Shown here: positions 5,889-38,838 of the stretch, in pieces | How the letters are laid out: every line of letters starts with the position of its first letter | Numbering within the stretch: position 1 is the first letter of the stretch | NCBI RefSeq assembly: GCF_008271465.1 | Contig: NZ_VMDU01000006.1 | Location: 1-64,000, forward strand | DNA length: 64,000 bases | Direction of reading: 5' to 3' | From: Tabrizicola flagellatus | GTDB lineage: Bacteria; Pseudomonadota; Alphaproteobacteria; Rhodobacterales; Rhodobacteraceae | Notes under the pieces: model-generated | Told to the model about the DNA's origin: nothing | What the model saw: the letters and a program-made list of their open reading frames with translations, nothing else | Database searches by the model: none | Program-made: the position numbers and the translations under genes

Positions 5889-7184
<1,296 letters not shown>

Positions 7185-8225: not shown

Positions 8226-9098
8226 ATGACCACCCCCGACACCCGCTCCCTCGAACACCGCATGGGCGACTGGGCCCGGGCCCGGCTGCCCTTCGCGGTG
8301 GCCGAACTCGTGATGTTCGTCCTGAAACAGGGCTGGGCCTGCCTCTTCGGCGGTCTCCTCCTCCTCGCGATCCTCGGGACCAAGGCCATCTGGCAACCAG
8401 ACTGGCCGCTCCACCGTTATGACGCGCTGTTCCTGTTTGCCATCGCCACGCAAGGGGTCTTCCTTGCGACCAAGCTGGAAACCTGGGAAGAAGCCCGCGT
8501 CATTCTCCTGTTCCACCTCACCGGCACGGCGATGGAATGGTTCAAGGTCAGCGCCGGCTCCTGGGCCTACCCCGAGCCGGGGATCTTCAAGCTGATGGGT
8601 GTGCCCCTCTTCTCGGGCTTCATGTATGCCGCCGTGGGCAGCTACATGGCGCGCGTCATCCGCGTTTTCGACATGGCCTTCGCGCCCTACCCGCGCTTTC
8701 CGCTGACCGTGGCGCTGGCCGCCGCGATCTACCTCAACTTCTTCGCCCACCATTTCCTGCCCGACATCCGCCTGGCGCTGTTCGTCGCGACCGTGGCGCT
8801 TTACGGCCGCACGCGGATCTGGTTCCGCATCCACGACCGGCACTGGTGGATGCCCTTGCCCGTCGCCGCCTTCCTGTCGGCGCTGGCGCTCTGGGTGGCC
8901 GAGAACGTGGGCACCGCGACCGGCACCTGGATCTACTCGGGCCAGATCCAGGGCGAAATGGTCAGCTTCGCCAAGCTCGGCTCGTGGTATCTGCTGCTTT
9001 ACGTCGCCTTCGTCACGGTGACGCTGGTCACCCGCCGGGCGCTGCATGCCCGGGCACTGGACCCGGGCCCATCCGGGGAAATCCTTGCGAAATCGTAA
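8226..9098 (+). CDS. DUF817 family integral membrane protein
   Basis: A 290-residue polytopic membrane protein with about eight hydrophobic segments (for example LFGGLLLLAILGTKAIW, FLFAIATQGVFLATKL). Conserved-looking intramembrane stretches include TGTAMEWFKVSAGSWAYPEPG, FAHHFLPDIR and FRIHDRHWWMP. This pattern and length match the DUF817 family (YoaT-like), whose function is not established. The histidines and tryptophans in the loops could bind metal or haem, but that is inference. It is followed by a strong convergent hairpin at 9138-9158. Confidence 0.8.
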   Translation: MTTPDTRSLEHRMGDWARARLPFAVAELVMFVLKQGWACLFGGLLLLAILGTKAIWQPDWPLHRYDALFLFAIATQGVFLATKLETWEEARVILLFHLTGTAMEWFKVSAGSWAYPEPGIFKLMGVPLFSGFMYAAVGSYMARVIRVFDMAFAPYPRFPLTVALAAAIYLNFFAHHFLPDIRLALFVATVALYGRTRIWFRIHDRHWWMPLPVAAFLSALALWVAENVGTATGTWIYSGQIQGEMVSFAKLGSWYLLLYVAFVTVTLVTRRALHARALDPGPSGEILAKS

Positions 9099-9137
9099 AG
9101 GCTGAAACCCAGGCCCTTGTTCTGGAAACCACTCCGG

Positions 9138-9158
9138 CCCTGTCCACCGTGGACAGGG
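9138..9158. terminator. Bidirectional hairpin between convergent genes
   Basis: CCCTGTCC-ACCGT-GGACAGGG forms an eight-base-pair stem with a five-base loop exactly between two convergent genes. It ends only 2 bases before the stop codon of the minus-strand gene. There is no long T-run, so termination strength is uncertain. Confidence 0.6.
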
Positions 9159-9160
9159 TC

Positions 9161-9532
9161 TCAGAAGTAGCCCCGCCAGGCCAGGAAGCCGAAGATGGCC
9201 ACGGCCAGCACCAGCACCCCGAAGCCGACCGAGCCGACAATGCCCGCGAACAGGTCGCGCCGGCGGCTCACCGGGTCGATCGCGATCAGATGCTTCAGGC
9301 AGACATCGTAGGCCTCGGTCACCTCGCCCATGTCGATCTGCCCCAGAAGCTTGGGGTTCTGCGCCTTCTGGGCCGCGCCGGCCAGCAGCCTGCCCGCATC
9401 GCGCACCTTGCGCGGCAAGAGGCGACCGGCCCGCTTCAGCTTTGCGGCGAGTCCCTTGCCGCCCAGCCCCAGCCTCTCTTCCAGAAGCTGCGCCACCCGA
9501 TCCGCCATCTGCTGGATCGTCACCGCACTCAT
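9161..9532 (-). CDS. Conserved small protein with C-terminal membrane anchor
   Basis: A 123-residue protein: an amphipathic N-terminal part (MSAVTIQQMADRVAQLLEER), a lysine/arginine-rich middle predicted helical, and one C-terminal transmembrane helix (FAGIVGSVGFGVLVLAVAIFGFLAW). The start ATG at 9532 has GGAGG upstream at about 8 nt and is preferred over the in-frame ATG at 9547. I do not recognise a named family. The topology suggests a tail-anchored cytoplasmic protein. Confidence 0.75.
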   Translation of the reverse strand: MSAVTIQQMADRVAQLLEERLGLGGKGLAAKLKRAGRLLPRKVRDAGRLLAGAAQKAQNPKLLGQIDMGEVTEAYDVCLKHLIAIDPVSRRRDLFAGIVGSVGFGVLVLAVAIFGFLAWRGYF

Positions 9533-9642
9533 CTTGTCACCCTCCACCGCCCCCGCAGAACCTAGTGTCGTTTGCCGGGACGATCAACCGCCCTGCGTCG
9601 GGTTCACTGGCCTGAAGCTCTCGAAATCGCTATGGAAAACCC

Positions 9643-10416
9643 ATGCTCGCCACGATTCGCCACCCCGCCGCAGCGGCCCCCGAGGCCCCGACCCTGGTCA
9701 TCGCGCACGGCCTCTACGGCTCGGGCCGGAACTGGGGCGTCATAGCCCGCCGCCTGGCCGACCGGCGCGAGGTGGTGGCGGTGGACATGCGCAACCATGG
9801 CGATAGCCCGCGCTTTCCGACCCAGAGCTATCCCGAGATGGCCGCCGACCTGGCCGATGTGATCGAGAGCCTAGGGCCGCAGCCGGTGGACCTCTTGGGC
9901 CATTCGATGGGAGGGAAGGCCGCGATGCAACTCGCGCTGACCCGCCCCGAGCTGATCCGCCGCCTGATCGTCGCGGACATCGCCCCCGTGGCCTATGCCC
10001 ATGACCAGACCCGCAACGCCCGTGCCATGGCCGAGATCGACCTGTCGCGGATCACCACGCGGGCCGAGGCGGACGCAGCCCTGTCGGCCCGGATCGACGA
10101 CCCCGCCCTGCGCGCCTTCTTCCTGCAATCGCTCGATCTGCGCCAGCGCCCGCCGCGCTGGCGGCTGAACCTGCCGGTGCTGGAAGCCGAGATGCCGAAG
10201 ATCGTCGGCTGGCCGGGAACCCTGGGCGTGTTCGACCACCCCGCCCTGTTCCTGACCGGCGCCGAAAGCCGCTATGTCCTGCCCGAACACCGCGAGACGA
10301 TCCGCGCCTTGTTCCCGAAGGCGCGCTTCGCGAAGATCCCCGGCGCGGGCCACTGGCTGCATGCCGAAAAGCCACGCGAGTTCGAGGAGACCGTCCGGGT
10401 CTTTCTGGAAGCCTAG
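9643..10416 (+). CDS. Alpha/beta hydrolase, YbfF-type esterase
   Basis: A 257-residue alpha/beta-fold hydrolase. The nucleophile elbow GHSMGG places the serine at residue 88, the oxyanion-hole HG is in IAHGLYGSGRNW (about 22-23), and the catalytic histidine is His237 in PGAGHWLHAEKP. The order and spacing match the short-chain acyl esterase family containing E. coli YbfF. Substrate unknown. Its end overlaps the end of the convergent small gene at 10413 by 4 bases. Confidence 0.9.
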   Translation: MLATIRHPAAAAPEAPTLVIAHGLYGSGRNWGVIARRLADRREVVAVDMRNHGDSPRFPTQSYPEMAADLADVIESLGPQPVDLLGHSMGGKAAMQLALTRPELIRRLIVADIAPVAYAHDQTRNARAMAEIDLSRITTRAEADAALSARIDDPALRAFFLQSLDLRQRPPRWRLNLPVLEAEMPKIVGWPGTLGVFDHPALFLTGAESRYVLPEHRETIRALFPKARFAKIPGAGHWLHAEKPREFEETVRVFLEA

Positions 10417-10589
10417 CCTTCGATCTGCCGGGCGATCAGCCAGCTGACCGGCAGGGCAAGGGCCGCTCCGGCCGCTGCCGCCCCGACGATCGGCCAGAGC
10501 GTGTCATAGCCCAAGGTCAGGACCAGAATGACCCCCGATCCCGCCAGGGCGGTGCCGATCATCGAAAACAGGATCATCATCAGGCGCAT
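10413..10589 (-). CDS. 58-residue two-helix membrane protein
   Basis: Short open frame with an excellent ribosome site: AGGAGG seven bases before the ATG at 10589. The product is nearly all hydrophobic, two helices (MILFSMIGTALAGSGVILVLTL and IVGAAAAGAALALPVSWLIA) followed by a short basic tail. Size and layout resemble small inner-membrane proteins found as single genes in Rhodobacterales. Function unknown. Confidence 0.7.
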   Translation of the reverse strand: MRLMMILFSMIGTALAGSGVILVLTLGYDTLWPIVGAAAAGAALALPVSWLIARQIEG

Positions 10590-10660
10590 CGCGAAGCCTC
10601 CTGCAAGTCGCGCATCGGAAAAAGCATATCCGGGCCGCGCCTCTGCCGCCTTGATCGGCG

Positions 10661-11841
10661 TCAATCCGCTGCGGCTGAGGCGGCTACCAGCACCTGCCGC
10701 AGGGCCGTTTCCATGAGGGGCACCGGATTGCCCTTCATCGACGAGGCCGAGAGCGCCGCCCCCGCGATCTCGGCATGGCGGGCGGGCTCTACCCCCAGCG
10801 CGGCAAGGTCCGGCAGGCCCGAGACCCGGGCCCAGGCCTGCAGCGCCAGGGGGGCCTCGTCGGCGGTCACGCCCAGCACCTCGGCGAGGATCGCGCAGAC
10901 TTCGTCCAGCCGGGCGCGCGCCGCGCCCATGGCCGCCGCCCGGTTCGCGGCCAGGACCGGACCCAGGAGCGCCCCGCAGATCGCGCCATGGGCCGCGCCC
11001 GTCATCCCGCCGATCACTCCGGCCAGCCCGTGCACCGCGCCAAGACCTGCATTGGCCAGCGCCAGCCCGCCGCAGAGGCTGGTCCAGGCCATCCGGTCGC
11101 GCGCCGCTGCGTCCTCGTCCTGCATCAGCCGGATCAGCGCCGCGAGCCCGGGCCCGATCGTGGGCCGCGCAAGCGCGTCGGTGTAGGGCGTCGCCTTGAC
11201 CGAGACATAGGGCTCGATCACCTGCGTCACTGCGTCGAGACCCGAGGCCAGCGTCACCCCCCGCGGGCAACCGTCCGTCAGCGCCGGATCGACGATGGCC
11301 AGCCGCGCCACCATCCGGTCGTCGCGCAAGGAAACCTTGCGACCCTCGACCGCGATGACCGCGTTCTTCGTCACCTCAGCCCCCGTCCCCGCCGTGGTCG
11401 GGATCGCGACGAAGGGCAGTGGATCGGCCGTCAGCGGCCGGCCCTTGCCCACGACTTCCAGGTGATCCAGCGGCCCGGAGGGCGCCGGGATCAGCGCCGC
11501 CAGCGCCTTGCCCAGGTCCAGCGCCGCCCCGCCGCCGAGGGCCACCACGCAGTCGGGGCGGTACGCGCGGGCGGTGGCCAGGGCGGCCTCGAGGTCGGCG
11601 AGGGAGGGTTCGCCCGCGCAGGGCAGGGCCAGGGTCTCCGGCCCCAGCGCCTCGATCAGCCAGGCGGCGCGGGCGGGGTTTGCGCCGTGGACGACCAGCA
11701 CGCGGCCACCGAAGGCGCGGATCAGACCTGGTGCCTTCGCCGCCTCGCCCCTGCCAAAGAGGATGCGGCCGGGCTGGGTGATGGCGAAGGCCGCTGGCAA
11801 CCCGGGAATTCTCGCCGAAAATTCCCGGGCGCGCGGAGCCG

Positions 11842-11845
<4 letters not shown>
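10661..11845 (-). CDS. Iron-containing alcohol dehydrogenase, coupled to glpK
   Basis: A 394-residue group III (Fe-type) alcohol dehydrogenase or maleylacetate-reductase-like protein. Motifs seen: the nucleotide-binding [14 protein letters not shown] (around residue 100), [19 protein letters not shown], and the metal-binding region with [11 protein letters not shown] and [11 protein letters not shown]. The ATG at 11845 overlaps the glpK stop as ATGA, so it should be translationally coupled to glycerol kinase, implying a glycerol-related job such as oxidation of glycerol, dihydroxyacetone or a propanediol. A 29-base palindrome lies in its first codons (11801-11829). The alternative is that translation really begins at a TTG just after that palindrome. 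Substrate cannot be decided from sequence. Confidence 0.88.
11801..11829. repeat. 29-base palindrome inside the alcohol dehydrogenase N-terminus
   Basis: CCCGGGAATT pairs with AATTCCCGGG around a TCG-c-CGA core, with a single mismatch. It encodes residues REFSARIPG in the annotated frame and starts about 13 bases after the glpK stop codon. A sister element with the same length and core lies at 41107-41135, between genes. Confidence 0.75.
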
Positions 11846-13326
<1,481 letters not shown>

Positions 13327-28044: not shown

Positions 28045-28926
28045 TCAGGTGTAATGCACGCGCCGCTCGATGTAGCGGAACTGGATGAAGGTCAGCGCCA
28101 TGACGAGGCACATCAGGATGATCGACTGCGCGGCGGCGCCGGAATAGTCGAAGCCGCGGAAGCCGTCGGAATAGATCTTGTAGACCATCAGGTCCGTCGC
28201 CCGGAACGGCCCGCCCCCGGTCAGCGTGTCCACGATGCCGAAGCTGTCGGTGAAACTGTCGGTGATGTTGATGACCAGAAGGAAGAAGAAGGTCGGCGTC
28301 AGGAGCGGCAGTTGCAGGTCGATCATCCGGCGCAGGGGGCGCGCGCCGTCCATGGCGGCGGCCTCCGTCAGGCTGCGGGGAATCGCCTGAAGCGCGGCGA
28401 GGAAGAAGATGAAGCTGTAGGAGACCTGCTTCCACGCCCCGGCGATGACGATTGCGGTCACCGCCTGCCAGGGATGTTTCGACAGATCCCACCAGCCGGG
28501 CGAGATGGTGTTGATGTAGCTGAAGATGCCGGCGCCGGGGTTGAAGACGAACTGGAAGGCAAGGCCCACGGCGGGGGCGGCCACGGCATAGGGCCAGATG
28601 ATGCCGATGCGCCAGACGCGGTAGCCGGCAAGCTGGCGGTCCACGAACAGCGCGAGCGTCAGCGCCATCCCCATGGCCAGAATGGTGGTGGCCAGCGCGT
28701 AGATCACCGAGACCCGGACCGAGCCCCAGTAATAGGGGTCCGACAGCACCTTGCGGAAATTGTCGAAGCCGACCCAGGTGTTGCCGCCGCCCCAGGGCTG
28801 TTCCAGCGTGAAGGCCCAGTAGAGCGCCTGCGCCGAGGGCCAGTAGAAGAAGGTGAAGATCACCAGAAGCTGCGGGGCCAGCAGAAGCGGCACGATCCAG
28901 CTGAACTTGAAATGGGCGCGGCGCAT
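28045..28926 (-). CDS. ugpA: sn-Glycerol-3-phosphate ABC transporter permease
   Basis: A 293-residue permease, almost the same length as E. coli UgpA (295). Six helices; EAA loop IPRSLTEAAAMDGARPLRRM; periplasmic loop FGIVDTLTGGGPFRATDLMV. The ATG at 28926 begins MRRAHFKFSWIVPLLL, a normal permease N-terminus; an upstream in-frame start (29031) would add proline-rich unrelated residues. Confidence 0.93.
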   Translation of the reverse strand: MRRAHFKFSWIVPLLLAPQLLVIFTFFYWPSAQALYWAFTLEQPWGGGNTWVGFDNFRKVLSDPYYWGSVRVSVIYALATTILAMGMALTLALFVDRQLAGYRVWRIGIIWPYAVAAPAVGLAFQFVFNPGAGIFSYINTISPGWWDLSKHPWQAVTAIVIAGAWKQVSYSFIFFLAALQAIPRSLTEAAAMDGARPLRRMIDLQLPLLTPTFFFLLVINITDSFTDSFGIVDTLTGGGPFRATDLMVYKIYSDGFRGFDYSGAAAQSIILMCLVMALTFIQFRYIERRVHYT

Positions 28927-28996
28927 GGGGTCTCCGGCAGAAGGGAGGGGCGCGGCAGGAGGCCGCCGCGCCCGCGGGTCGCAAGGATCGAGGCGA

Positions 28997-30325
28997 TTAC
29001 GGGAAGGACTTGCCCGGATAGGTCGCGGCAAAGCGCTTCAGATGGTCGTTGCCGCGGGCAACGGCGGTGTCCAGCGCCTCCTTCATCGTCTTCTGGCCGG
29101 CCAGCGCGGCCTCGACCTCGGCCGTCCATTCGGCGCGGATCTGGATGAAGCTGCCGAGACGGATGCCGCGGGTCAGGGGCGTCGGTTCGGTCCAGGTCAG
29201 CGACTTCATGGCGATGTCGCGGTTGATGTAGGGTTCCTTGTCGTAGAAGCCTTCGGCCTTCAGCGCCTCGTAGGTGGACTTGGTCACCGGGATGTAGCCC
29301 GAGTTCTCCAGCAGGAACTGCTGTTCCGGCTTGGTGGCGATGAAGGCCAGATAGGCCGCCGCGCCCTTGTATTCCTCGTCGGTCTTGCCCGAGAGCACCC
29401 AGAGCGAGGCGCCACCGACGACGGTGTTCTTGCGCTCCACCCCTTCGTAGGTCGGGATGATCTGCACGTCCCAGGCGAAGGCGGGCTTCAGCTTGTGGAC
29501 GGTGTTGTGGTCGGCGATGGACGAGAAGAACACCGCGCATTCGCCTTCGACAAAGCTGTCGCGCGAGGATTTGCCGGCCGCGGGCGTGCGCAGCTGGGCC
29601 AGGCCCTCGTCGAGCCAGCGCTTGATGTTTTCCATGTGCTGGACGTGCAGCGTGGTGTTGAACAGAAGCTCGCTGTCCAGGCCGTCATAGCCGTTGTTGT
29701 TCGAGGCCACCGGCACGCCATGGGCCATGGAGAACTGTTCCAGGTCGATCCAGGACGAGGGCGCATAGGCGTAGGGGCAGTCCACGCCCGCGGTCTTCAG
29801 CGCCTTGAAGGCGGCTTCCATGCCTTCCCAGGTGATCGGCGCCTCGGTCAGGCCGGCCTTGGCGAAGAGGTCCTTGTTCCAGTAGTAGACCGGGGTCGAG
29901 GAGTTCCAGGGCATCGAGAAGAACTCGCCCGACTTCGACGAATAGTAGTTGGCGATGCCGGGGAAATAGTCGGCCCAGTCGATGGTCACGCCGGTGTCGG
30001 CCATCAGCTTGGTGACCGGATAGAATTCGCCCGACATCATCAGGTCGGCGGTGCCGGCGTCGAAGGATTGCAGAAGCGTCGGGTGCTTGCCGGCGCGGAA
30101 GGCGGCAATGGTGTTCTGCACGGCCTTTTCATAGCCGTCCTGGCCGACGCAGACGGCCTCGTACTGGTCCTGGCTCGCGTTGAAGCGATTGCAGGTTTCC
30201 GCCACCACGGCGCCCAGGTCGCCGGTCAGGCCATACCAGTATTCGAATTTCGCACGCTCGGCCGAAGCGGTGCCGGCCGTGGCGGCGAGGGCCACAAGCG
30301 TGGCGGTCGCAAGCTTTTGGGTCAT
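28997..30325 (-). CDS. ugpB: sn-Glycerol-3-phosphate-binding protein
   Basis: A 442-residue periplasmic binding protein with a signal peptide (MTQKLATATLVALAATAGTASA). It aligns by eye with E. coli UgpB along its length: NAIAAFRAGKHPTLLQSFDAG-like region, SMPWNSSTPVYYWNKDLF, NNNGYDGLDSELLFN, VVGGASLWVLSGK and EALDTAVARGN all have direct counterparts. UgpB binds glycerol-3-phosphate and glycerophosphodiesters such as glycerophosphocholine. First gene of the ugp operon, behind a PhoB box. The ATG at 30325 is preferred over the longer 30406 start. Confidence 0.96.
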   Translation of the reverse strand: MTQKLATATLVALAATAGTASAERAKFEYWYGLTGDLGAVVAETCNRFNASQDQYEAVCVGQDGYEKAVQNTIAAFRAGKHPTLLQSFDAGTADLMMSGEFYPVTKLMADTGVTIDWADYFPGIANYYSSKSGEFFSMPWNSSTPVYYWNKDLFAKAGLTEAPITWEGMEAAFKALKTAGVDCPYAYAPSSWIDLEQFSMAHGVPVASNNNGYDGLDSELLFNTTLHVQHMENIKRWLDEGLAQLRTPAAGKSSRDSFVEGECAVFFSSIADHNTVHKLKPAFAWDVQIIPTYEGVERKNTVVGGASLWVLSGKTDEEYKGAAAYLAFIATKPEQQFLLENSGYIPVTKSTYEALKAEGFYDKEPYINRDIAMKSLTWTEPTPLTRGIRLGSFIQIRAEWTAEVEAALAGQKTMKEALDTAVARGNDHLKRFAATYPGKSFP

Positions 30326-30380
30326 CGTCCCTGTCTCCGTTGTGGAAGGTTGGATCGCGGCGCCCTTATGCGGGGATTCG

Positions 30381-30398
30381 ATGACGGATTGACGACAG
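30381..30398 (-). promoter_or_regulatory. PhoB box of the ugp operon
   Basis: On the minus strand: CTGTCGT-CAAT-CCGTCAT, two 7-base direct repeats each matching CTGTCAT at 6 of 7 positions, with exactly the 4-base spacer of a Pho box. Ten bases downstream stands CATAAG, a reasonable -10 element at the spacing used by PhoB-activated promoters. The box ends 56 bases before the ugpB start codon. Confidence 0.8.
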
Positions 30399-30450
30399 AC
30401 AGGCAAAAATACCTATACGAAACATAGTGTTAGGAAAAATCGCTCCATAT

Positions 30451-30473
30451 CCTTGCCGGAACCGGCCGGCAGG
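30451..30473 (-). terminator. Possible terminator of the phosphodiesterase unit
   Basis: A GC-rich inverted repeat (CCTGCCGG...CCGGCAAGG on the minus strand, one bulge) lies about 33 bases after the phosphodiesterase stop, with a run of five T some 10 bases further on. Weak but sensibly placed before the PhoB box. Confidence 0.4.
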
Positions 30474-30505
30474 GGCGGAAAGGCTTCGGTTTTGGCCGCC
30501 GGGTC

Positions 30506-31309
30506 CTAGTGGAACAGGCCCGGCGCCATGGTCAGGTGGCGTTCGCCGTGATCCTGGAAATGCACGGTGACGCCTTCGGGATGCAGCAGGACCACGGCCA
30601 TCTGTGCCGGGCCCTCCAGCTGGCGCTGGCGGCCCGGCACGCCCGGCACATGCGGCGTGACGGAATAGTGCGAGCCTGCCAGCGTGGTCATCGGGATGCC
30701 CTTCCAGACCGCCGAAGTCGGCAGGTGGACATGGCCCGCGATGACCTGCCGCACCTCGGGGTGGCGGGTCAGCACCTGGACGTAGTCGGTAGCGTTTTCC
30801 AGGATGATCGCATCGACCGGCAGGAACAGCGGGTTCGCGTGGTGGTGCTGGACGATGATGACCGGGCGGTCTGCGGCCTCGTCCAGCCGGGCGGCGAGCC
30901 AGTCGAGCCGGCCCCGGCAAAGGCGCCCCCCGACCAGCCCCGGTTCGGTCGTGTCGAGCAGGACGATCCGGTGCCCGCCCGCATCGAAGGCGGTGGAGAC
31001 GCGGCCCAGCGGGTCGTCGAGAGCCTCGCCGAAGACCGACAGGAAGGCCGCGCGGTCGTCGTGGTTGCCGAGGGTCAGGTAGACCGGCATCGGCAGGTCG
31101 GAGATCAGGTCGTGCAGGTGGCGGTAGGCCGCGACCTCGCCCCGGTCGGCGAGATCCCCCGCCAGAAGGACGAAGGCCGCGTCGGCATGGTCGCGCTGGA
31201 TCGTGTCCAGCGCCTCGCGGGTGCGCGCGCCGGTGTCCAGCCCGTTCACCGGCACGCCGGGGGCAGAGAGGTGCAGGTCGGACAGGATGACGAATTTCAG
31301 CGGGTTCAT
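30506..31309 (-). CDS. Class III metallophosphodiesterase (GpdQ/CpdA-like)
   Basis: A 267-residue calcineurin-like phosphoesterase. The five metal-site motifs are present in order: DLHLS, LLAGDLADRGE, LTLGNHDDRAAF, VQHHHANPLF and AGHVHLPTS. Size and motif spelling match GpdQ glycerophosphodiesterase and CpdA cAMP phosphodiesterase. Beside ugpBAEC, hydrolysis of imported glycerophosphodiesters to glycerol-3-phosphate is the most economical role. An alternative is the PlcP-like phospholipid hydrolase used for lipid remodelling under phosphate limitation. Its ATG overlaps the stop of the upstream TIM-barrel gene (ATGA). Confidence 0.88.
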   Translation of the reverse strand: MNPLKFVILSDLHLSAPGVPVNGLDTGARTREALDTIQRDHADAAFVLLAGDLADRGEVAAYRHLHDLISDLPMPVYLTLGNHDDRAAFLSVFGEALDDPLGRVSTAFDAGGHRIVLLDTTEPGLVGGRLCRGRLDWLAARLDEAADRPVIIVQHHHANPLFLPVDAIILENATDYVQVLTRHPEVRQVIAGHVHLPTSAVWKGIPMTTLAGSHYSVTPHVPGVPGRQRQLEGPAQMAVVLLHPEGVTVHFQDHGERHLTMAPGLFH

Positions 31310-32133
31310 TCCGCAAGCCCCATCGCCTTGAGATACTGCGCCGAGGGGATCACGCCCGCCTTGTCGCGCAGTTCCAGGATCATGCGCGGATTGGCCCCGG
31401 CGGCGCGGGCCTGGGCCAGCGCGGCGAAGACCGAGGGCCAGAGGATCGTGCCATGGCCGATCTGCCAGTGCCGGTCGGCGAAGCCGTCGGCGTCCTGCAG
31501 GTGGACATGGCCCAGACGACCGGCAGCGGCGCGGATGTAGAAGTCCACCGGCGGCGCCCCGGTCGAGATGTGGGCGTAATGCGCATGCCCGGTGTCCACC
31601 GACAGTTCCAGCGCCTGCCAGCCCAGCTCGGCGCAGAGCATGGCGCGGTCGGTGGGCTCCATGTCCTCGATGTTCTCCAGCACGAAGGTCACGCCCATGT
31701 CCTCGGCCCGCCTCAGCGCCCCGCCCAGCGTGTCGCGGGCGGCTTCCAGCATCCGGGCGGTGTCGGAGGGATAGAGACCGCGGTGGTTGTAGCCCCAGGT
31801 GGTGAAGGGCGAATGGATCACGACATGCGTGCCGTTCACCGCGGCGCAGACATCCAGCGCCTGCTCCATCCGGCGGGCGACGATGCGGCGCACCTCGGGG
31901 TCGTAGGAGGCGATGGTGAAGCCCCAGAACGGCCCATGGATGCCACGGCGGCCCTCGTGGCCGTCGAGCAGCCGGTTCACCTCGTCGGCCAGGCCGGACC
32001 AGTCGCCGTCGAGCACCGACACCTCGACGAAATGTTGCAGTTCGAGGTCGCGCGGGGCCTCGAGCAGCCAGTGGCGGTGGGCGGCGAGGCTGTCGCGGCA
32101 AAGTGCGGCGCCGAGGATCGGTCGTGAAGTCAT
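31306..32133 (-). CDS. Sugar phosphate isomerase/epimerase-like TIM barrel
   Basis: A 275-residue xylose-isomerase-like TIM barrel (AP endonuclease family 2 fold). Recognisable strand ends with metal ligands are THVVIHSPF, VTFVLENIEDM, LELSVDTGHAHYAH, GHVHLQDADG and RMILELRDK. Enzymes of this family isomerise or dehydrate sugars and inositols. It is translationally coupled to the phosphodiesterase, so it might process the alcohol moiety released from a phosphodiester (for example an inositol), which is inference. ATG at 32133 has AGGA upstream. Confidence 0.8.
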   Translation of the reverse strand: MTSRPILGAALCRDSLAAHRHWLLEAPRDLELQHFVEVSVLDGDWSGLADEVNRLLDGHEGRRGIHGPFWGFTIASYDPEVRRIVARRMEQALDVCAAVNGTHVVIHSPFTTWGYNHRGLYPSDTARMLEAARDTLGGALRRAEDMGVTFVLENIEDMEPTDRAMLCAELGWQALELSVDTGHAHYAHISTGAPPVDFYIRAAAGRLGHVHLQDADGFADRHWQIGHGTILWPSVFAALAQARAAGANPRMILELRDKAGVIPSAQYLKAMGLAE

Positions 32134-32332: not shown

Positions 32333-33184
32333 ATGGCCAAAGACCGGCAGAACGAAATGAACCCAGAACCGGCCTTGCCGCCCGGCACGACGCCGGGCGT
32401 ATCCCTTGTCGTGCCGATGAAGAACGAGGAAGGCGCGATCGGGGCCCTGGTCGAAGGAATCGCCGCGGCGATGGCGGACCGGTCCTGGGAGCTGATCCTG
32501 GTGGACGACGGATCGACCGACCGCACCCGGGAGATCTGCCTGAGCCTTGCTGCAGCCGACGCACGGATCCGGGTGCTGGGCCATCCCGTCTCGGCCGGGC
32601 AGTCGGCCGCGCTGCATTCCGGGGTGCTGGCGGCGCGCGCGCCCATCGTCGCCACGCTGGACGGCGACGGCCAGAACCCGCCGGAGAACCTGCCCCGCCT
32701 GATCGCGCCGCTGGTCGGCCCCGGCGCCGACCCGGCCTGCGGCCTGGTCGCGGGACAGCGGGTCGGGCGCAAGGACACCTGGTCCAAGCGCCTTGCCTCG
32801 CGCGCGGCCAATGCCATCCGCTCGGCCGTGCTGCGCGACGGGACGCGCGACACAGGCTGCGGGCTGAAGGCCTTTCGCCGCGATGCCTTCCTGGCCCTGC
32901 CCTATTTCGACCACATGCACCGTTACCTGCCGGCGCTGTTCGCGCGCGACGGCTGGCAGGTCGCGCATGTGGACGTGACCCATGCCCCGCGCCAGAGCGG
33001 CCGGTCGAAATACGGCAACCTGGACCGGGCGCTGGTCGGGATCGTCGATCTTTTCGGCGTTGCCTGGCTGATCCGCCGTCGCAAGCGGGCGCGGGCGCAG
33101 ATGCTGACCACTGAGACCAGATCCGAACCCGCCCCTGCCGAGGCACGGCCGGTTCCTGTTGCGGGAGATAAAGTCAATGCGTGA
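32333..33184 (+). CDS. Family 2 glycosyltransferase, polyprenyl-phosphate sugar synthase type
   Basis: A GT2 enzyme of the dolichol-phosphate-mannose synthase/ArnC/RgtE type, 283 residues (275 if the ATG at 32357 is used). Seen: VSLVVPMKNEEGAIGALV, LILVDDGSTDRT, the metal-binding DGDGQNPPE, and the RYLPALFARDGW and RQSGRSKYG regions typical of the family. These enzymes transfer a sugar from a nucleotide sugar to undecaprenyl phosphate on the cytoplasmic face. No C-terminal transmembrane pair is fused; the next gene supplies a small membrane protein instead. First gene of a six-gene overlapping operon. Confidence 0.9.
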   Translation: MAKDRQNEMNPEPALPPGTTPGVSLVVPMKNEEGAIGALVEGIAAAMADRSWELILVDDGSTDRTREICLSLAAADARIRVLGHPVSAGQSAALHSGVLAARAPIVATLDGDGQNPPENLPRLIAPLVGPGADPACGLVAGQRVGRKDTWSKRLASRAANAIRSAVLRDGTRDTGCGLKAFRRDAFLALPYFDHMHRYLPALFARDGWQVAHVDVTHAPRQSGRSKYGNLDRALVGIVDLFGVAWLIRRRKRARAQMLTTETRSEPAPAEARPVPVAGDKVNA

Positions 33185-33500
33185 AACACTCTGGGCCTGG
33201 CTGCATGTGCAGAGCTGGCAGGAATTCACCTGGGTGATGATCGGGCTGACCGGCCAGCTTCTGTTCACCGCGCGCTTCCTGGTGCAGTGGATCGCGTCCG
33301 AGCGCGAGAAGCGGTCGGTGATCCCGCTGGCCTTCTGGTACTTCTCGACGGCGGGGGGGCTGGTGCTTCTGTCCTATGCGCTCTGGCGGCGCGACCCGGT
33401 GTTCATCCTGGGCCAGTCGATGGGGTTGTTCATCTATCTCCGCAATCTGTGGCTGATCCATGCCGAGCACCCCGACCGCGCGGCCAATGCCGGCAACTGA
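33177..33500 (+). CDS. LABN-domain small membrane protein
   Basis: A 107-residue membrane protein matching the lipid-A-disaccharide synthase N-terminal-like (LABN) domain: TWVMIGLTGQLLFTARFLVQWIASEREKRSVIP, then FWYFSTAGGLVLLSYALW and GQSMGLFIYLRNLWLI. Three helices. The ATG at 33177 overlaps the GT2 stop by 8 bases and has GGGAG upstream. LABN proteins commonly adjoin GT2 polyprenyl-phosphate transferases; a role in anchoring the enzyme or moving the lipid-linked sugar across the membrane is plausible but unproven. Confidence 0.88.
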   Translation: MRETLWAWLHVQSWQEFTWVMIGLTGQLLFTARFLVQWIASEREKRSVIPLAFWYFSTAGGLVLLSYALWRRDPVFILGQSMGLFIYLRNLWLIHAEHPDRAANAGN

Positions 33501-34941
33501 CCGCGCGGGTCAGGTCTTCGCGGGTGGCGCCTTCTTCCTTGCGCTCGGCCTGATCGGTTTCCGGATCGCCCTTGCCCTTCTGGACCTGACCGAGCTTTCG
33601 ACCGACGAGGCGCAATACTGGTTCTGGGGCCAGACGCTGGAATTCGGCGCCTATTCCAAGCCGCCGCTGATCGGCTGGATCCTGCGGGCTGCAACCGAGC
33701 TTCTCGGCCAGAGCGTCTGGGCCGTGCGACTGCCTGCCGTGCTGTTTCACGCCGCGACGGCGGGCGTGATCTTCCTTGCCGCCCGCCGAATGGCTCCGCG
33801 CCCGGTGGCCGAACTGGCGGCGCTGCTGTACCTCGTCGCACCGGCGGTGACGCTGGGGTCGGCGGTGATGACCACCGACACGCCGATGCTCCTGGCGGCG
33901 GCGGTGGCGCTCTGGGCACAGCTGCGCGCCGGAGAGGCGCGGCTGGCCGGAGGCCGCGACCGCGCGGCGGCCGTCATCCTGGGCCTTGCGCTGGGGCTGG
34001 GGATCCTGGCCAAGCATGCGATGCTGTTCTGGCTGGCCGGCGGCCTGGCCGCCGCCGTCCTGTCGCCCGGGCTGCGCCCGGGGCGGTCCGACGCGGCGCT
34101 CGCGCTGGCGGTGATGCTGGTCGTCGTCGCGCCACATGTAGTCTGGCTGCGGCAGCACGGTTTCATCACGCTGCACCATGTCGAGGACATCACCGCCGGC
34201 GGCGGGCTGTCGCTGCTACGCCCGCTGCGCTTTCTGGCCGAGCAGTTCCTGGTCGCCGGGCCGATCCTGTTCCCGGCGATGATCCTGGGGCTGGTGGCGG
34301 GGGGAGCGCCGGCGGGGGTGGCGGCGCTGGCGCTGGTGCCGCTGGTCATCGTGGTGGGGCAGGCCGCCAAGGGCCCGGCCCTTGCCAACTGGGCGGTTCT
34401 GTATCTGGTGCCCGGAGCGATCCTGGGGGCGCTGTGGCTGGTGCGGCACCGTGCGCTGGCCCGGCTGGCGCTGGGGCTGGGGCTGCTGGTTGCGCTGGCC
34501 CTGCCCATGATGAAGGCCTTCGGAACCGGGGTGCAGCGGCCCGACGGACGCCCGGTCCTGTCGCGCTATCTGGGCCACGGCGAGATCGCCACCTGGGCGC
34601 TGGAAACGGCGCGGGAGGCCGGCGCACAGGCCCTGGTCTCACAGGACCGCGACCTCCTGGCCGATCTGTCCTGGTTCGGCGCGACGGGAGGACTGGCGAT
34701 CCGCGCCGTCCCGCCAAAGGGCCTGCCCGCACATCACTGGGAGATGACCGCCCCCTACGACCCCGCCCGGGACGGCTGTGCGGTGCTGCTTCTGCGCGCA
34801 GGCGCCGCGCTGCCCGTCGCCGAGGCCGCCGAGATCGCCCGTCTGGTCGCCCCACCCGGCTTTGCCGGAGGACAGGAGCTGGTGCTTTACCGCCTGCCCG
34901 GCCCGGCCTGCCCAGCCGCCCTGCAGTCACCGGAGCCCTGA
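33487..34941 (+). CDS. ArnT-like membrane glycosyltransferase (GT83/PMT_2), copy 1
   Basis: A 484-residue polytopic protein of the ArnT/PMT_2 type with about ten helices. The first periplasmic loop has LLDLTELSTDEAQYWFW, where the DE pair is the usual catalytic carboxylate position, followed by FGAYSKPPLIGWI. Such enzymes move a sugar from undecaprenyl phosphate to lipid A or core LPS on the periplasmic face. ATG at 33487 overlaps the LABN gene by 14 bases; an ATG at 33460 is also in frame. Confidence 0.88.
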   Translation: MPATDRAGQVFAGGAFFLALGLIGFRIALALLDLTELSTDEAQYWFWGQTLEFGAYSKPPLIGWILRAATELLGQSVWAVRLPAVLFHAATAGVIFLAARRMAPRPVAELAALLYLVAPAVTLGSAVMTTDTPMLLAAAVALWAQLRAGEARLAGGRDRAAAVILGLALGLGILAKHAMLFWLAGGLAAAVLSPGLRPGRSDAALALAVMLVVVAPHVVWLRQHGFITLHHVEDITAGGGLSLLRPLRFLAEQFLVAGPILFPAMILGLVAGGAPAGVAALALVPLVIVVGQAAKGPALANWAVLYLVPGAILGALWLVRHRALARLALGLGLLVALALPMMKAFGTGVQRPDGRPVLSRYLGHGEIATWALETAREAGAQALVSQDRDLLADLSWFGATGGLAIRAVPPKGLPAHHWEMTAPYDPARDGCAVLLLRAGAALPVAEAAEIARLVAPPGFAGGQELVLYRLPGPACPAALQSPEP

Positions 34942-34942
34942 C

Positions 34943-35689
34943 ATGAGCTACCAGCGCCTCGTGATCGCCTATCTGCTGGTCTTCATCCTGGCGCAGGCCG
35001 TCTTCGCCGCCTTTCCCGGCATCGACCTTGCGGTGTCGCGCCTGTTCGCGGTCGAAGGCGGCGGGTTCACCTGGGCCACGGGGCCGGGTCGGACGATCAA
35101 CCTGACACTCCGCCGGCTGGGCGAGATCGTCACGCTGATCCTGATCCTGGCCTATCTGGCCGGCCTGTTCCTCAGCCGGTTCAGAGGGGACGACCTTCGG
35201 CTTGTGGCCTATCCGGTCCTCAGCGTGGCGCTGGCAAGCGGCGTCATCGCCAACCTGCTGCTGAAACATCATGTCGGCCGCGCCCGCCCGGACACCCTGG
35301 CCGAGTTCGGCGGCACCGCAGACTTCTCCCCGGCCTGGCAGGTGGTGCAGGAATGCGTGCGCAACTGTTCCTTCACGTCGGGAGAGGTGGCGCTGGCCGC
35401 CGGGCTGGCCCTGCCGATCCTGGCGATCCTCTGGCCGCATCTGACGCGCCGGGGAGCGCGTCTGCTGGCCATCGGAGCGGCGGTCGGCTACATCGCGCTG
35501 GTCTCGCTGCTGCGCATCGGACTGGGCCGGCATTTTCTCAGCGATGCGGTGTTTTCGGTGCTGTTCGGCGCCGGCGCGGCGCTGGCGCTTTACCCCGTCC
35601 TGCGCATAGATGCCGCCCGGCGCCATCTGCCCCAGTGGGTCGAGCGCCGGTCCCGGCCGCAATCGGGCGAACGGAGAGGCGTGCATTGA
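34943..35689 (+). CDS. PAP2-family phosphatase, copy 1 (altered SGH motif)
   Basis: A 248-residue membrane phosphatase with about six helices. Motif 1 KHHVGRARP fits KX6RP, motif 3 RIGLGRHFLSD fits RX5HX3D with the nucleophilic histidine, but motif 2 reads CSFTSGE where PSGH is usual, so the general-acid histidine position carries glutamate. Family members include LpxE, LpxF and undecaprenyl-pyrophosphate phosphatases. Sits one base after the first ArnT-like gene and overlaps the next start. Confidence 0.88.
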   Translation: MSYQRLVIAYLLVFILAQAVFAAFPGIDLAVSRLFAVEGGGFTWATGPGRTINLTLRRLGEIVTLILILAYLAGLFLSRFRGDDLRLVAYPVLSVALASGVIANLLLKHHVGRARPDTLAEFGGTADFSPAWQVVQECVRNCSFTSGEVALAAGLALPILAILWPHLTRRGARLLAIGAAVGYIALVSLLRIGLGRHFLSDAVFSVLFGAGAALALYPVLRIDAARRHLPQWVERRSRPQSGERRGVH

Positions 35690-37338
35690 CGACTCTTTCC
35701 GCGCCGCATCCCGTCACCGGCACGCGCGCCGCCTGGCACTGGCTGGCGCTGGCGCTCTTCGCGCTTCTGGCCTTCCTGCCAGCGCAGTCGGCCCTGCCGG
35801 TCACCGACCGCGACGAGGCGCGTTTCGTTCAGGCCAGCCGGCAGATGGTGGAAAGCCGCGACTTCGTGGACATCCGCTTTCAGGACGAGCCCCGGCACAA
35901 GAAGCCGGTCGGAATCTACTGGCTGCAAAGCGCCGCCGTCCTGGCGGCGGGCGGCGGGCCGGATGCACCGCTCTGGGTCTACCGGCTGCCCTCGCTTGCC
36001 GGGGCGGTGCTGTCGGTGCTGCTGGTGGCGGTGGCGGGGGCGCCGCTGTTCGGGCGGAGACCGGCATTGCTGGCGGCGGCGCTTTTCGCGGGAACCCTGG
36101 TGATCGGCGGCGAGGCGCGGATCGCCAAGACCGATGCGGCGCTTCTGGCGACGACCCTGGCCGCGCAGGCGGTGCTGGCGCGGCTCTATCTGCGCGAAAC
36201 GGTCGGACGGCCGGCGGTCTGGGGCTTCTGGCTGGCGATCGCGGCCGGACTGCTGATCAAGGGGCCGATCGGGCCGATGGTGCCGGGGCTGACGGCACTG
36301 GCACTGGTGGCGCTGGACCGGCGGGCGGGCTGGCTGCGCCCGCTGGCCGCACCGCTGCCGATCGCCGCCGCGCTGGCGCTGGTCCTGCCCTGGGTCCTGG
36401 CGATCACGCTGCGCACGGAGGGGGCCTTCTGGACCGGATCGGTCGGCGCCGACCTTCTGCCGAAGATCGCCGCGGGACAGGAGGGGAAGGGCGCCCCGCC
36501 GGGAACCTATCTGCTGGCTCTGCCCGTGACCTTCTGGCCGGCGCTGCCGCTCTTGATCCTGGCGCTGCCGGCGATCTGGCGGGCACGGCGAGCGCCGGCG
36601 ACGCGGTTCTGCCTGGCCTGGGCGATCCCGGTCTGGCTGGTCTACGAGGCGGTGCCGACCAAGCTGATCCACTACACGCTGCCCGCCCTGCCCGCGCTGG
36701 CCCTTCTTGCCGTGGGGCACCTGCCGGCGACGGCAAGCGCGGTCCCGCGCCTCTTGCGGGGGCTGGCGGTGCTGGCCTTCCTGCCCGGTCTTGCCCTAGG
36801 CGGTTTCGTCCTGAACTACAGCGCAAATGCAGGCGACCGGGCCGCAGCGGCGCTGGTGCTGGCCGGACTTGCGGGGGCGGTCATCGCGGGTGGCCTGGCG
36901 ATCCGCTTCTGGCGACGGTCCCAGCCCGTGGGCCTTGTCGCGGCACTGGCGGCGGCAGGGGTGATCCTGCATGGGGCGCTGATCTCGGCCGCGGCGCGGA
37001 TGCCGCAGCTCTGGCCGACCGAGGCGGCAATGGCACTGGCCGGCGAGGTCGCCGCCGGGCAGGGTTGCGACCGGCCACGGCTGACCGGATGGGGCTATCA
37101 GGAACCCTCGCTGGTCTGGCGCGGGGGACGCGATACCCGGCTGCTGCCGGCCTCGGCCCCGGTGCAAGAGGCGATCCGCCCCGGCGCCTGCCAGGTTGTC
37201 ATCCACCTGCGCGACGCTTCGCCCGATCTTGACGCAGAGACCCCGGGATGTCAGCTGACCGGAACGGTCGAGGGATTGGCCATCGGGGCGGGCAAGTGGG
37301 TGACGCTGGACATTCTGGATTGCCGGGGGACACCGTGA
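35686..37338 (+). CDS. ArnT-like membrane glycosyltransferase (GT83/PMT_2), copy 2
   Basis: A 550-residue ArnT-like protein. The first loop has ALPVTDRDEARFVQASRQM with the catalytic DE pair, then FQDEPRHKKPVGIYWLQ, a motif strongly conserved in ArnT and rhizobial Rgt transferases. About eleven helices and a short C-terminal periplasmic domain. The TTG start at 35686 overlaps the PAP2 stop (TTGA) and has GGAGAGG 6 bases upstream. Distinct in sequence from the first ArnT-like protein of this operon, so it probably adds sugar at a different site. Confidence 0.9.
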   Translation: MTTLSAPHPVTGTRAAWHWLALALFALLAFLPAQSALPVTDRDEARFVQASRQMVESRDFVDIRFQDEPRHKKPVGIYWLQSAAVLAAGGGPDAPLWVYRLPSLAGAVLSVLLVAVAGAPLFGRRPALLAAALFAGTLVIGGEARIAKTDAALLATTLAAQAVLARLYLRETVGRPAVWGFWLAIAAGLLIKGPIGPMVPGLTALALVALDRRAGWLRPLAAPLPIAAALALVLPWVLAITLRTEGAFWTGSVGADLLPKIAAGQEGKGAPPGTYLLALPVTFWPALPLLILALPAIWRARRAPATRFCLAWAIPVWLVYEAVPTKLIHYTLPALPALALLAVGHLPATASAVPRLLRGLAVLAFLPGLALGGFVLNYSANAGDRAAAALVLAGLAGAVIAGGLAIRFWRRSQPVGLVAALAAAGVILHGALISAAARMPQLWPTEAAMALAGEVAAGQGCDRPRLTGWGYQEPSLVWRGGRDTRLLPASAPVQEAIRPGACQVVIHLRDASPDLDAETPGCQLTGTVEGLAIGAGKWVTLDILDCRGTP

Positions 37339-38198
37339 AACACGCCGGATCGGGGGAGGAGCTGCTGACTCAGGTCCGGCCAGAGGAGGCGACTTCGGCC
37401 GCACCGGCACCCGTTCCAAACCTGGCTGCGGGGCAGAGCCGGCTGTCGCTGGCCATCAGCCTGGCCTGTGCCCTGTTCCTGGTGGCGGTGGCCGTCGACC
37501 CCGTGGTGCGCGACTACGCCCGCTCGCTGGACCCGACCCTGGTCGGTGCCCTGCGCCTTGCGACCGAGTTCGGCAACTCGGCCTGGCCATTGGGTATCGG
37601 GCTGCTCCTTCTGGCCTGCATCGCCCTGGCGCGACGCAGGATCCCGGACGATCCGTCCGGGTCCCTCGCGCAGTTGCGCTCGACGTTGATGTTCATGATC
37701 GCCTCGGTCGCGGTCAGCGGCATCCTGGCCAATCTGGCGAAGAACGTCATCGGCCGCGCCCGCCCCTCTGCCATGCCCGATATCGGCGTGCTGGAGTTTT
37801 CCCCCCTGGCGCTGATGCCGAGCTGGGCCGCGTTCCCGTCGGGACATGCCACGACCGCAACCGCCTGCGCCGTGGCGCTGGCGCTGTCCTGCCCGCGCTA
37901 CGCCTGGGCCTGGCTTTCGGTTGGCGGCATCGCCGCGCTGTCGCGGCCTTTCCTGGCCGTGCACTGGATGAGCGATGCGCTGGCCGGGATGGTCCTGGGC
38001 ACCGTGATCACGTTGGCCATCCGCAAGGCGATGCTGGCCCGCGGGCACCGTTTCGGAGTCGAGCCGGGCGCATTGGCCCAAAGCCTTGCCGCCGCCCTGG
38101 CCGAGATCGGCGGACTGGCCGGCAAGGGCCTTGGCCTGGGACAGTCCGCGCTGAGGGCGTTTCGGCGCAAGGCGTTCCCCGGCCGGACCGAGGACTGA
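37335..38198 (+). CDS. PAP2-family phosphatase, copy 2 (canonical)
   Basis: A 287-residue membrane phosphatase with all three motifs intact: KNVIGRARP, FPSGHATTA, and SRPFLAVHWMSD. The N-terminus has a hydrophilic extension of about 40 residues. The GTG start at 37335 overlaps the stop of the preceding transferase (GTGA). Last gene of the operon; the tRNA gene 62 bases further is on the other strand. LpxE/LpxF-type lipid A dephosphorylation is the likely role given the neighbours; recycling of undecaprenyl pyrophosphate is the alternative. Confidence 0.9.
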   Translation: MKHAGSGEELLTQVRPEEATSAAPAPVPNLAAGQSRLSLAISLACALFLVAVAVDPVVRDYARSLDPTLVGALRLATEFGNSAWPLGIGLLLLACIALARRRIPDDPSGSLAQLRSTLMFMIASVAVSGILANLAKNVIGRARPSAMPDIGVLEFSPLALMPSWAAFPSGHATTATACAVALALSCPRYAWAWLSVGGIAALSRPFLAVHWMSDALAGMVLGTVITLAIRKAMLARGHRFGVEPGALAQSLAAALAEIGGLAGKGLGLGQSALRAFRRKAFPGRTED

Positions 38199-38259
38199 GC
38201 CGTCGCAGGCCACGACCCGACCCTTTTGGACCGGCGTCAGATCACTGTCCTGGGAAAAC

Positions 38260-38335
38260 TGGTGGAGCAGAGGGGGATCGAACCCCTGACCTTATCATTG
38301 CGAACGATACGCTCTCCCAACTGAGCTACTGCCCC
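38260..38335 (-). tRNA. tRNA-Ala (CGC)
   Basis: The minus strand folds into a standard 76-nt cloverleaf with encoded CCA. Acceptor GGGGCAG/CTGCTCC contains the G3-U70 wobble pair that identifies alanine tRNA. The anticodon loop TTCGCAA gives CGC, which reads GCG. The T arm AGGGG-TTCGATC-CCCCT is perfect. Confidence 0.97.
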
Positions 38336-38394
38336 ATCCGCAGAGCGCTATTCAGCGCAAATCCCGGGGAGTGTCAAGCCGCGTCGGCGCCGGA

Positions 38395-38838
38395 TCAGCG
38401 TGCATGCTGACGGACGAAGGCCACGATGTCCGCAGCAGGACGCGCCCCGGCCAGCCGCGCGACCTCGCGTCCGTTCCGGTAGAGGATCAGAGCGGGGATG
38501 CCGCGGATGCCGGCACGCGCCGAGATCTCCTGGTGCTGATCGGTGTTCAGCTTCCCCAGCCGCGCCTCTTGCGCCAGCACCTTCGCAGCCTTGGCGAATT
38601 CCGGGGCCATCGCCCGGCACGGGCCGCACCAGGGCGCCCAGTAATCGACGAGAACCGGAAGGCTGTCGCCCCGCGTCATCTTGTCATGGGTGGCAGCGTC
38701 CAGTTCGGCGACCTCGCCATTTACGAGGACGGCCCCGCAGACCCCGCATTTGGGCGCATCGCCCAATCGGGACGCGGGCACACGATTCGCCTGGCCACAG
38801 GCGGTGCAGGTCAGTTTCAGGGCATCGGCTACAGGCAT
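38395..38838 (-). CDS. trxC: Thioredoxin 2 (zinc-finger thioredoxin)
   Basis: A 147-residue TrxC-type thioredoxin. N-terminal zinc ribbon with CTACGQANRVP and CGVCGA; then a thioredoxin domain with active site YWAPWCGPCRAMAPEF and the cis-proline loop GIRGIPALILY. Reduces cytoplasmic disulfides, commonly under oxidative stress. ATG at 38838 chosen because GAGG lies 6 bases upstream. Confidence 0.96.
   Translation of the reverse strand: MPVADALKLTCTACGQANRVPASRLGDAPKCGVCGAVLVNGEVAELDAATHDKMTRGDSLPVLVDYWAPWCGPCRAMAPEFAKAAKVLAQEARLGKLNTDQHQEISARAGIRGIPALILYRNGREVARLAGARPAADIVAFVRQHAR

Follow-up and report, generated by a model that had tools for sequence, protein, structure and literature searches.

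A six-gene operon of Tabrizicola flagellatus that may replace both lipid A phosphates by sugars, with a LABN protein as candidate flippase

Introduction

When lipid A lacks its phosphates, the membrane differs in its charge, in how it binds metals and in how a host recognizes it. Among the systems described for sugar addition, the rgtE-rgtF-lpxE cluster of Mesorhizobium has been connected with lipid A that carries alpha-(1,1)-galacturonate (cited in later papers to Brown et al. 2013). In M. loti, the cluster is formed by rgtE (MAFF_RS01125, 244 amino acids (aa)), rgtF (RS01135, 547-549 aa) and lpxE (RS01140, 271 aa) (PMC5644692, PMC7795004), and the published account reports that neither lpxF nor rgtD was found in this species. 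The 4'-end system of Rhizobium leguminosarum consists of LpxF and RgtD, for which 257 and 473 aa are given in print. Here, a stretch of 64,000 nucleotides (nt) from Tabrizicola flagellatus (contig NZ_VMDU01000006.1, positions 1 to 64,000, hereafter the window) was analyzed, in which six genes at positions 32333-38198 form an operon that resembles the Mesorhizobium cluster and extends it.

It is poorly understood, in organisms ranging from bacteria to humans, how monosaccharides linked to polyprenyl phosphate or dolichol phosphate cross the membrane. In the ArnC-ArnEF-ArnT and GtrB-GtrA-Gtr systems, a synthase is combined with one or more small membrane proteins and a GT-C transferase, and the operon of the window has the same make-up. 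In mammals, the PQ-loop protein MPDU1 is required in all known transferase reactions that depend on monosaccharide-P-dolichol (PMC3281891), and its function has been described as unknown.

The six genes were labelled GT2, LABN, GT39a, PAPa, GT39b and PAPb, with "GT39" used as a label only. Our reading, to which we give a probability of about 0.58, is that the operon makes a lipid A with sugars in place of its 1- and 4'-phosphates. In the pathway that we infer, GT2 would charge polyprenyl phosphate at the inner leaflet from a nucleotide sugar, the sugar being most probably a uronic acid (galacturonate, for example). LABN would then work as a dimer of SemiSWEET-type half transporters and bring the polyprenyl-phosphate sugar across to the outer leaflet. 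At the periplasmic face, PAPa (LpxF-like) would take off the 4'-phosphate and GT39a would put a sugar there, and PAPb (LpxE-like) would take off the 1-phosphate, to be replaced by a sugar through GT39b (RgtF-like). In our view, the operon combines lipid A capping enzymes of known kinds in a new order and adds a candidate for a missing flippase family.

Results

All six open reading frames (ORFs) lie on the + strand in the order GT2-LABN-GT39a-PAPa-GT39b-PAPb (Table 1). GT2 overlaps LABN by 8 nt and LABN overlaps GT39a by 14 nt, GT39a and PAPa are separated by 1 nt, and the PAPa/GT39b and GT39b/PAPb overlaps are 4 nt each. These sizes depend on the chosen start codons: from the earlier ATG at 33460, GT39a would have 493 aa and overlap LABN by 41 nt. 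An earlier note on this DNA had described six genes that overlap or stand one base apart, which was borne out by the ORF map, the junctions of -8 to +1 nt and the Pfam families. No promoter-like site was found against 0.2 expected, and one terminator-like site against 2.3 expected. The search for this gene order in other genomes, which the earlier note had called for, recovered all six families together in two further genomes of the genus (L046 and L047) and a four-gene order in Mesorhizobium huakuii. Since the six families recur in the two congeners and the GT2-LABN pair recurs throughout the class, the operon was considered more than a chance assembly.

Table 1. Genes of the operon, its bounding features and the fused phosphatase of a related locus (positions in the window, except for the last row, which uses the numbering of locus L075)
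Feature	Position	Strand	Product and proposed role	Domain match (E value)
GT2	32333..33184	+	283 aa, polyprenyl-phosphate sugar synthase, RgtE-like	Pfam PF00535 3.4e-29
LABN	33177..33500	+	107 aa, three-helix SemiSWEET-fold membrane protein, candidate flippase	Pfam LAB_N PF07578 1.1e-33
GT39a	33487..34941	+	484 aa, ArnT/RgtD-type polytopic transferase, proposed 4'-end	Pfam PMT_2 1.3e-23
PAPa	34943..35689	+	248 aa, LpxF-like PAP2, proposed lipid A 4'-phosphatase	Pfam PAP2 1.4e-18
GT39b	35686..37338	+	550 aa, TTG start, RgtF-like, proposed 1-end transferase	PMT_2/PMT 2.8e-9/4.2e-6
PAPb	37335..38198	+	287 aa, GTG start, PAP2, LpxE-like by gene order	PAP2 2.8e-20
tRNA-Ala(CGC)	38260..38335	-	downstream bound of the operon	
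TIM-barrel gene	31306-32127	-	divergent, upstream of the operon	
L075 PAPa-PAPb fusion	4868-6274	-	468 aa	N half LpxF-like 1.4e-38, C half SepP-like 2.6e-6

The proposed 1-end module was compared with the locus of M. huakuii NBRC 15243 (L167), whose transferase was taken as rgtF by gene order and size. The genes stand there as GT2-LABN-GT39b-PAPb, in the same relative order as in the window. The window GT2 shared 46% identity with the GT2 at the rgtE position (7e-64), LABN 55% with its counterpart, GT39b 38% over 551 columns with the protein at the rgtF position (4e-92), which amounts to full-length homology, and PAPb 36% over 172 columns with the PAP2 at the lpxE position (3e-17); PAPb also carries the canonical PAP2 motifs. 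The Mesorhizobium cluster has GT2, an RgtF-size transferase and a PAP2 in the one order found here, with LABN standing between GT2 and the transferase in M. huakuii. The window differs from it by a second transferase and an LpxF-like PAP2 inserted between LABN and the RgtF-like gene. We take IFO 15243 to be the same strain as NBRC 15243, and the phosphate of M. huakuii lipid A to be at 4'. In print, the lipid A of M. huakuii IFO 15243T has galacturonate and phosphate both (PMC7663294). The passages on this cluster in PMC5644692 and PMC7795004 make no mention of the gene numbered between rgtE and rgtF in M. loti, and we predict that this gene is LABN.

A scan of the named genomes with a GT39b alignment yielded 549 confirmed relatives, the best 80 of which were used as the RgtF-type set, some loci being cut by contig ends. 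GT2 was present in 73 of these loci, LABN in 72 and PAPb in 39, and all four genes, GT39b included, in 36; GT2 and LABN were at most 200 nt apart in 70 of the 80. The GT39b of the window lies clustered with an rgtE-like GT2 and a PAP2, as would be expected of an RgtF. Identities of 53-58% were obtained between the window GT2 and those of Azospirillum lipoferum, Afipia and Bradyrhizobium altum. Azospirillum lipoferum 4B, a species cited as having galacturonate at lipid A C-1, has the order GT2-LABN-GT39b. The order GT39b-PAPb-GT2-LABN of Afipia clevelandensis (L197) agrees with that reported for Oligotropha carboxidovorans (c19730 rgtE, c19740 lpxE, c19750 rgtF).

The best NCBIfam match of PAPb was SepP, an undecaprenyl-diphosphatase (1e-12, under the cut-off). 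In a PAP2 tree of 36 rows, the PAPb side parted from PAPa at 100/100, and no supported fork joined the window PAPb to that of Mesorhizobium. The named loci supplied PAP2 rows from only ten; the PAPa of L063 and L086 and one half each of L070, L089 and L098 were missed by the motif pattern and stand outside the tree. It is conceivable, though unlikely, that PAPb serves to recycle undecaprenyl diphosphate and that PAPa is a lipid phosphatase of broad range, with one or neither lipid A end being sugar-capped. The SepP match speaks for this, as do the lack of PAPb at 41 of the 80 RgtF-type loci and the reported activity of LpxE enzymes on undecaprenyl pyrophosphate as well (PMC6581854). However, PAPb occupies the lpxE position of the Mesorhizobium locus, and PAPa and PAPb are fused in locus L075. 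Moreover, what a polyprenyl-phosphate sugar leaves behind after sugar transfer is the monophosphate; a further diphosphatase would be superfluous, which also counts against such recycling.

GT39a and PAPa were regarded as a separate, LpxF-like module, and its recurrence was followed around LABN. LAB_N matches were detected in 81 of 289 sampled genomes of the class, at 82 places; 73 of these and six places of the genus made up a set of 79 LABN loci, leaving out the window's own place, six strong places (G191, G052, G243, G253, G028, G146) and two weak ones. Neighbour pairs in this set, where the split GT39a of L047 may count twice, numbered 11 for GT39a-PAPa, 11 for GT39b-PAPb, 6 for GT39b-PAPa and 1 for GT39a-PAPb. 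The crossed pairs came from loci with both pairs side by side (L046, L047, L108) or with a two-domain PAP2 (L070, L075, L089, L098); these two-domain proteins are 468-563 aa long, stop to stop. In L108, from another family, GT39b-PAPb-GT39a-PAPa stands beside a divergent GT2-LABN, and in L075, GT39a, the 468-aa protein, GT39b, GT2 and LABN are spread over both strands. The halves of this fusion fell in the PAPa and PAPb groups of the tree, split at 100/100, the N-terminal half belonging to a PAPa clade of nine rows (100/100). The fusion of two phosphatases in one protein is expected if both serve one pathway. In L115 and L118, GT39b-GT39a was present and no PAP2 match was obtained. In both, LABN is followed by a further ORF of some 150 aa whose N terminus looks hydrophobic (8481-8933 and 8112-8561, respectively, both on the - strand).

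The LpxF/RgtD system of R. leguminosarum likewise pairs a PAP2 with a transferase of similar length (248 aa for PAPa and 484-493 aa for GT39a in the window), a likeness in length; unlike it, the window has its 4'-end genes in one operon with the 1-end genes. Both transferases were called ArnT-like in the earlier note, which suited GT39b better (NCBIfam ArnT model 9.7e-24, 84 bits; solved ArnT 5EZM at 5.3e-6) than GT39a (4.4e-7, 29 bits, no solved relative). Both scores were under the cut-off of 567 bits, and the Pfam domains PMT and PMT_2, both broad, matched both proteins. No solved structure matched GT39a or PAPa at E up to 1, and a plasmid search with GT39a gave no match.

A profile search for PAPa and GT39a covered 13 named genomes besides that of the window, M. 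carmichaelinearum standing in for L167. Strong matches to both were obtained in Afipia clevelandensis, Nitrobacter sp. 62-23, Bradyrhizobium altum and B. acaciae (in the latter, PAPa at a contig end). M. carmichaelinearum gave 3.8e-9 for PAPa and 1.6e-15 for GT39a; the former is probably its PAPb, because it lies on the same contig less than 3 kb from its LABN. The searches found neither gene in the genomes of Phyllobacterium brassicacearum, Chelatococcus and Microvirga, no GT39a in that of Azospirillum brasilense, and no PAPa in Ca. P. onerii, where GT39a matched at 6.3e-13. Among published structures, the lipid A of O. carboxidovorans is described with sugars at both ends, that of B. elkanii with three mannoses on the backbone, and that of Phyllobacterium trifolii with galacturonate at C-1 and a 4'-phosphate in part. 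The contrast between the four genomes with strong matches and those of Mesorhizobium and Phyllobacterium is a hint that the module goes with the published lipid A of their kin, relatedness being uncontrolled.

In the 79 LABN loci, a same-strand GT2 was found within 400 nt in 65, upstream of LABN in 64, a GT39 within 5 kb in 62, both GT2 and GT39 in 57, and a PAP2 within 6 kb in 22. The earlier note had taken the LABN partner for a distinct variant. This was not sustained: by these counts and those of the RgtF-type set, LABN is the usual partner of this GT2, in M. huakuii as well. Outside the class, a GT2-LABN pair was found in the Fusobacteria Ilyobacter and Cetobacterium, in the latter with an annotated GDP-mannose 4,6-dehydratase and a UDP-glucose/GDP-mannose dehydrogenase, and Paenibacillus cellulosilyticus showed the order UDP-glucose dehydrogenase-epimerase-GT2-LABN. 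Being Gram-positive, Paenibacillus has no lipid A. These results pointed to a general role of LABN with polyprenyl-linked sugars, often perhaps uronic acids. The idea carried by the Pfam name, that LABN is part of a lipid A enzyme, was rejected on account of the pairs in Paenibacillus and the two Fusobacteria. LAB_N also matched the controls Bacteroides ihuae and Methanocaldococcus jannaschii, over the cut-off in one of the two.

GtrA was considered as the flippase of the window and set aside with no GtrA match in the window genome; SMR-type (ArnE/F-like) proteins were not searched for. The window differs in this respect from the ArnC-ArnEF-ArnT and GtrB-GtrA-Gtr systems, its small protein being the SemiSWEET-fold LABN. 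In the 30 best-scoring GtrA loci (about 1.5 kb either side), a GT2 of the same broad family was present in 17 and LABN in none, and GT2 scored 35-117 bits at GtrA loci versus about 200-360 bits at LABN loci. The window genome contained one LAB_N match, three PAP2 matches (two of them in the operon) and one UDP-glucose/GDP-mannose dehydrogenase over the cut-off.

Within the genus, LABN was present in 6 of the 25 genomes searched, the window's included, and the operon is a patchy trait. Besides L046 and L047, locus L049 held GT2-LABN-GT39a-PAPa only. In L047 (G001), GT39a is split over two frames at about 1.4-2.9 kb, possibly by a frameshift or a sequencing error. A different LABN-GT2-PMT_2 cassette without a PAP2 match was found in L051 (G022, 8746-12160), beside the same tRNA-Ala(CGC) and thioredoxin gene as the operon (window 38190-38400). 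This tRNA-Ala/thioredoxin site may be a swap point for sugar-transfer cassettes.

The L051 cassette and the LABN-GT2 pair of Paenibacillus also bear on what the transferases modify. That they act on the lipopolysaccharide core, the O antigen or a protein instead of lipid A was judged improbable, protein O-glycosylation included. This alternative draws on these two loci and on the weak ArnT similarity of GT39a with its lack of a solved relative; on the other side, the transferases mostly adjoin their own kind of PAP2, and GT39b is of the RgtF type.

The fold of LABN was predicted from an alignment of 70 sequences, all of them LABN proteins from RgtF-type loci or from the window. The AlphaFold model has three helices (mean pLDDT 87.4), and in Foldseek, ranks 1-15 were SemiSWEET or SWEET structures, with probabilities of 0.99-1.00 and target TM up to 0.85; the best E was 0.018, none being 0.001 or below. 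In a profile search against the PDB, E. coli SemiSWEET came first (0.0043), and SemiSWEETs made up 7 of the 10 sequences listed at E up to 10. With E values up to 10 allowed, 33 of the 70 members had a match to the SWEET family MtN3_slv, the best at 3.3e-4. The kinship of LABN with SemiSWEET is already known, as Pfam is reported to list Lab-N in the MtN3-like clan (PMC4499210).

Residues were compared with the published SemiSWEET positions, given in E. coli numbering (PMC4309421), through a HMMER alignment. At the inner gate, F19, M39 and Y40 of SemiSWEET correspond to F34, F53 and W54 of LABN, invariant in 70/70. At the outer gate, Y53, R57 and D59 correspond to Y67 (70/70), R/K71 (67/70) and D/E73 (70/70). 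In the pocket, N66 corresponds to Q80 (70/70), and W50 mostly to Leu (43) or Thr (23). Further invariant residues are Q37, which is the Gln of the PQ loop, and Q27, R33, E42, Y87, R89 and N90. LABN thus shares the predicted fold of SemiSWEET and SWEET, including the three helices, and lacks the residue set Trp50, Asn66 and Pro21 of SemiSWEET sugar transporters; it is unlike SemiSWEET in its pocket (Asn to Gln, Trp to mostly Leu or Thr), its hinge (Pro to mostly Val) and an invariant helix-1 Arg. The lipid monoolein was seen with its head group inside the SemiSWEET pocket (PMC4309421), which makes a lipid-linked substrate less far-fetched for LABN. Searches of open-licence PubMed Central found no paper giving LABN a role and none proposing a parallel between LABN and MPDU1, and this residue comparison is not known to us from print.

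From gene context and fold, we propose LABN as the flippase of the polyprenyl-phosphate sugar, a part that MPDU1 might play similarly in eukaryotes. The two proteins belong to the same superfamily, and the likeness is drawn from superfamily and gene context; the parallel is striking in that a member of that superfamily is encoded next to the synthase of a polyprenyl-phosphate sugar and to transferases of the GT-C type. A wider proposal, which we hold tentatively and at slightly less than even odds, is that LABN proteins (PF07578) are flippases of polyprenyl-phosphate monosaccharides and form a new family in addition to GtrA and the SMR-type ArnE/F. LABN would be a SemiSWEET-fold dimer with the pocket re-tooled for a lipid-linked sugar phosphate and the bacterial functional counterpart of MPDU1, one LABN serving the transferases of both ends here.

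A possible but less probable alternative is that LABN is a membrane partner which positions or activates the GT2 or GT39 enzymes, and that another protein flips. LABN adjoins GT2, the function of MPDU1 itself has been called unknown, and LAB_N also has a match within PRK01021, a model of lipid-A-disaccharide synthase, where flipping is not expected. We know of no LABN with demonstrated flipping, which also counts for a partner role. Residues and distribution tell against flipping as well: F43 of the SemiSWEET inner gate is an invariant Ser in LABN (S57), the hinge Pro21 is replaced by Val in 60/70, and two genera manage without LABN. No LAB_N match was found in Caulobacter vibrioides (control set) or in Maricaulis, and C. 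crescentus has been reported with the same backbone as Oligotropha, with galacturonate at both ends. Nine of the 79 LABN loci contain none of the other five families within 9 kb. Against a mere partner role stand the transporter fold predicted for LABN and the retained gate residues, together with the invariant Gln in place of the pocket Asn, and flipping by LABN remains our proposal. The Maricaulis locus (L160, 5159-8375) has GT2-GT39b without LABN, adjoined by LysE-type and VTT-domain genes, with the VTT membrane gene directly downstream. This VTT-domain protein might be an alternative lipid carrier transporter.

Discussion

The arrangement proposed in the earlier note, in which one donor synthase feeds a phosphatase and a transferase module for each end, agreed with the Mesorhizobium homology, the gene order and the recurrence of the two modules. 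The assignment of modules to ends stood by homology and gene order for the 1-end; for the 4'-end, it was left with LpxF-like scores far below the cut-off and presence or absence in a few named genomes. The comparison with named enzymes was divided in the same way, with GT39b matching the protein at the Mesorhizobium rgtF position along its full length and PAPa reaching 77 bits on the LpxF model.

Besides the points raised against LABN, several results weigh against the reading of a lipid A capped at both ends. The PAPa score on NCBIfam LpxF NF045633 (1.6e-21) fails the cut-off of 400 bits, and its four relatives (94-133 bits) all remain under it. An acidic residue takes the place of the motif-2 His in 8/8 aligned PAPa (seven Glu, one Asp); in the window the motif reads SGE, the motif-3 His and Asp being retained. 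The motif-2 histidine is a feature of PAP2 proteins as a whole. In the L075 fusion, the PAPa half retains this His, unlike the window PAPa. The two genes of the second module can occur apart, PAPa without GT39a in Niveispirillum and Cohaesibacter and GT39a (1.1e-136) without PAPa in Maricaulis. The GT39a family is broad, with 3 to 6 matches in each Nitrobacteraceae genome. Nitrobacter has GT39b without an adjoining PAPb, and in Azospirillum brasilense PAPb was absent within 6 kb and PAPa matched at just 9.5e-6. Four other Phyllobacterium strains were reported with LpxF homologues; set against the lack of PAPa in two Phyllobacterium genomes, this indicates that PAPa may not equal rhizobial LpxF. 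No lipid A data for the organism of the window were found.

If the reading is true, the operon encodes the whole conversion of lipid A at both ends as one unit. For the membrane crossing of lipid-linked monosaccharides, LABN offers a protein of 107 residues with a recognizable fold, encoded beside a donor synthase and transferases in many bacteria, by which the question becomes testable in a simple system. It is relevant to MPDU1 too, the gene affected in a glycosylation disorder of humans.

Upstream of the operon and divergent from it, genes for an ABC transporter permease, a solute-binding protein and a calcineurin-like phosphoesterase occupy positions 28045-31267 on the - strand. In L046, the solute-binding protein, phosphoesterase and TIM-barrel genes adjoin the operon as well.

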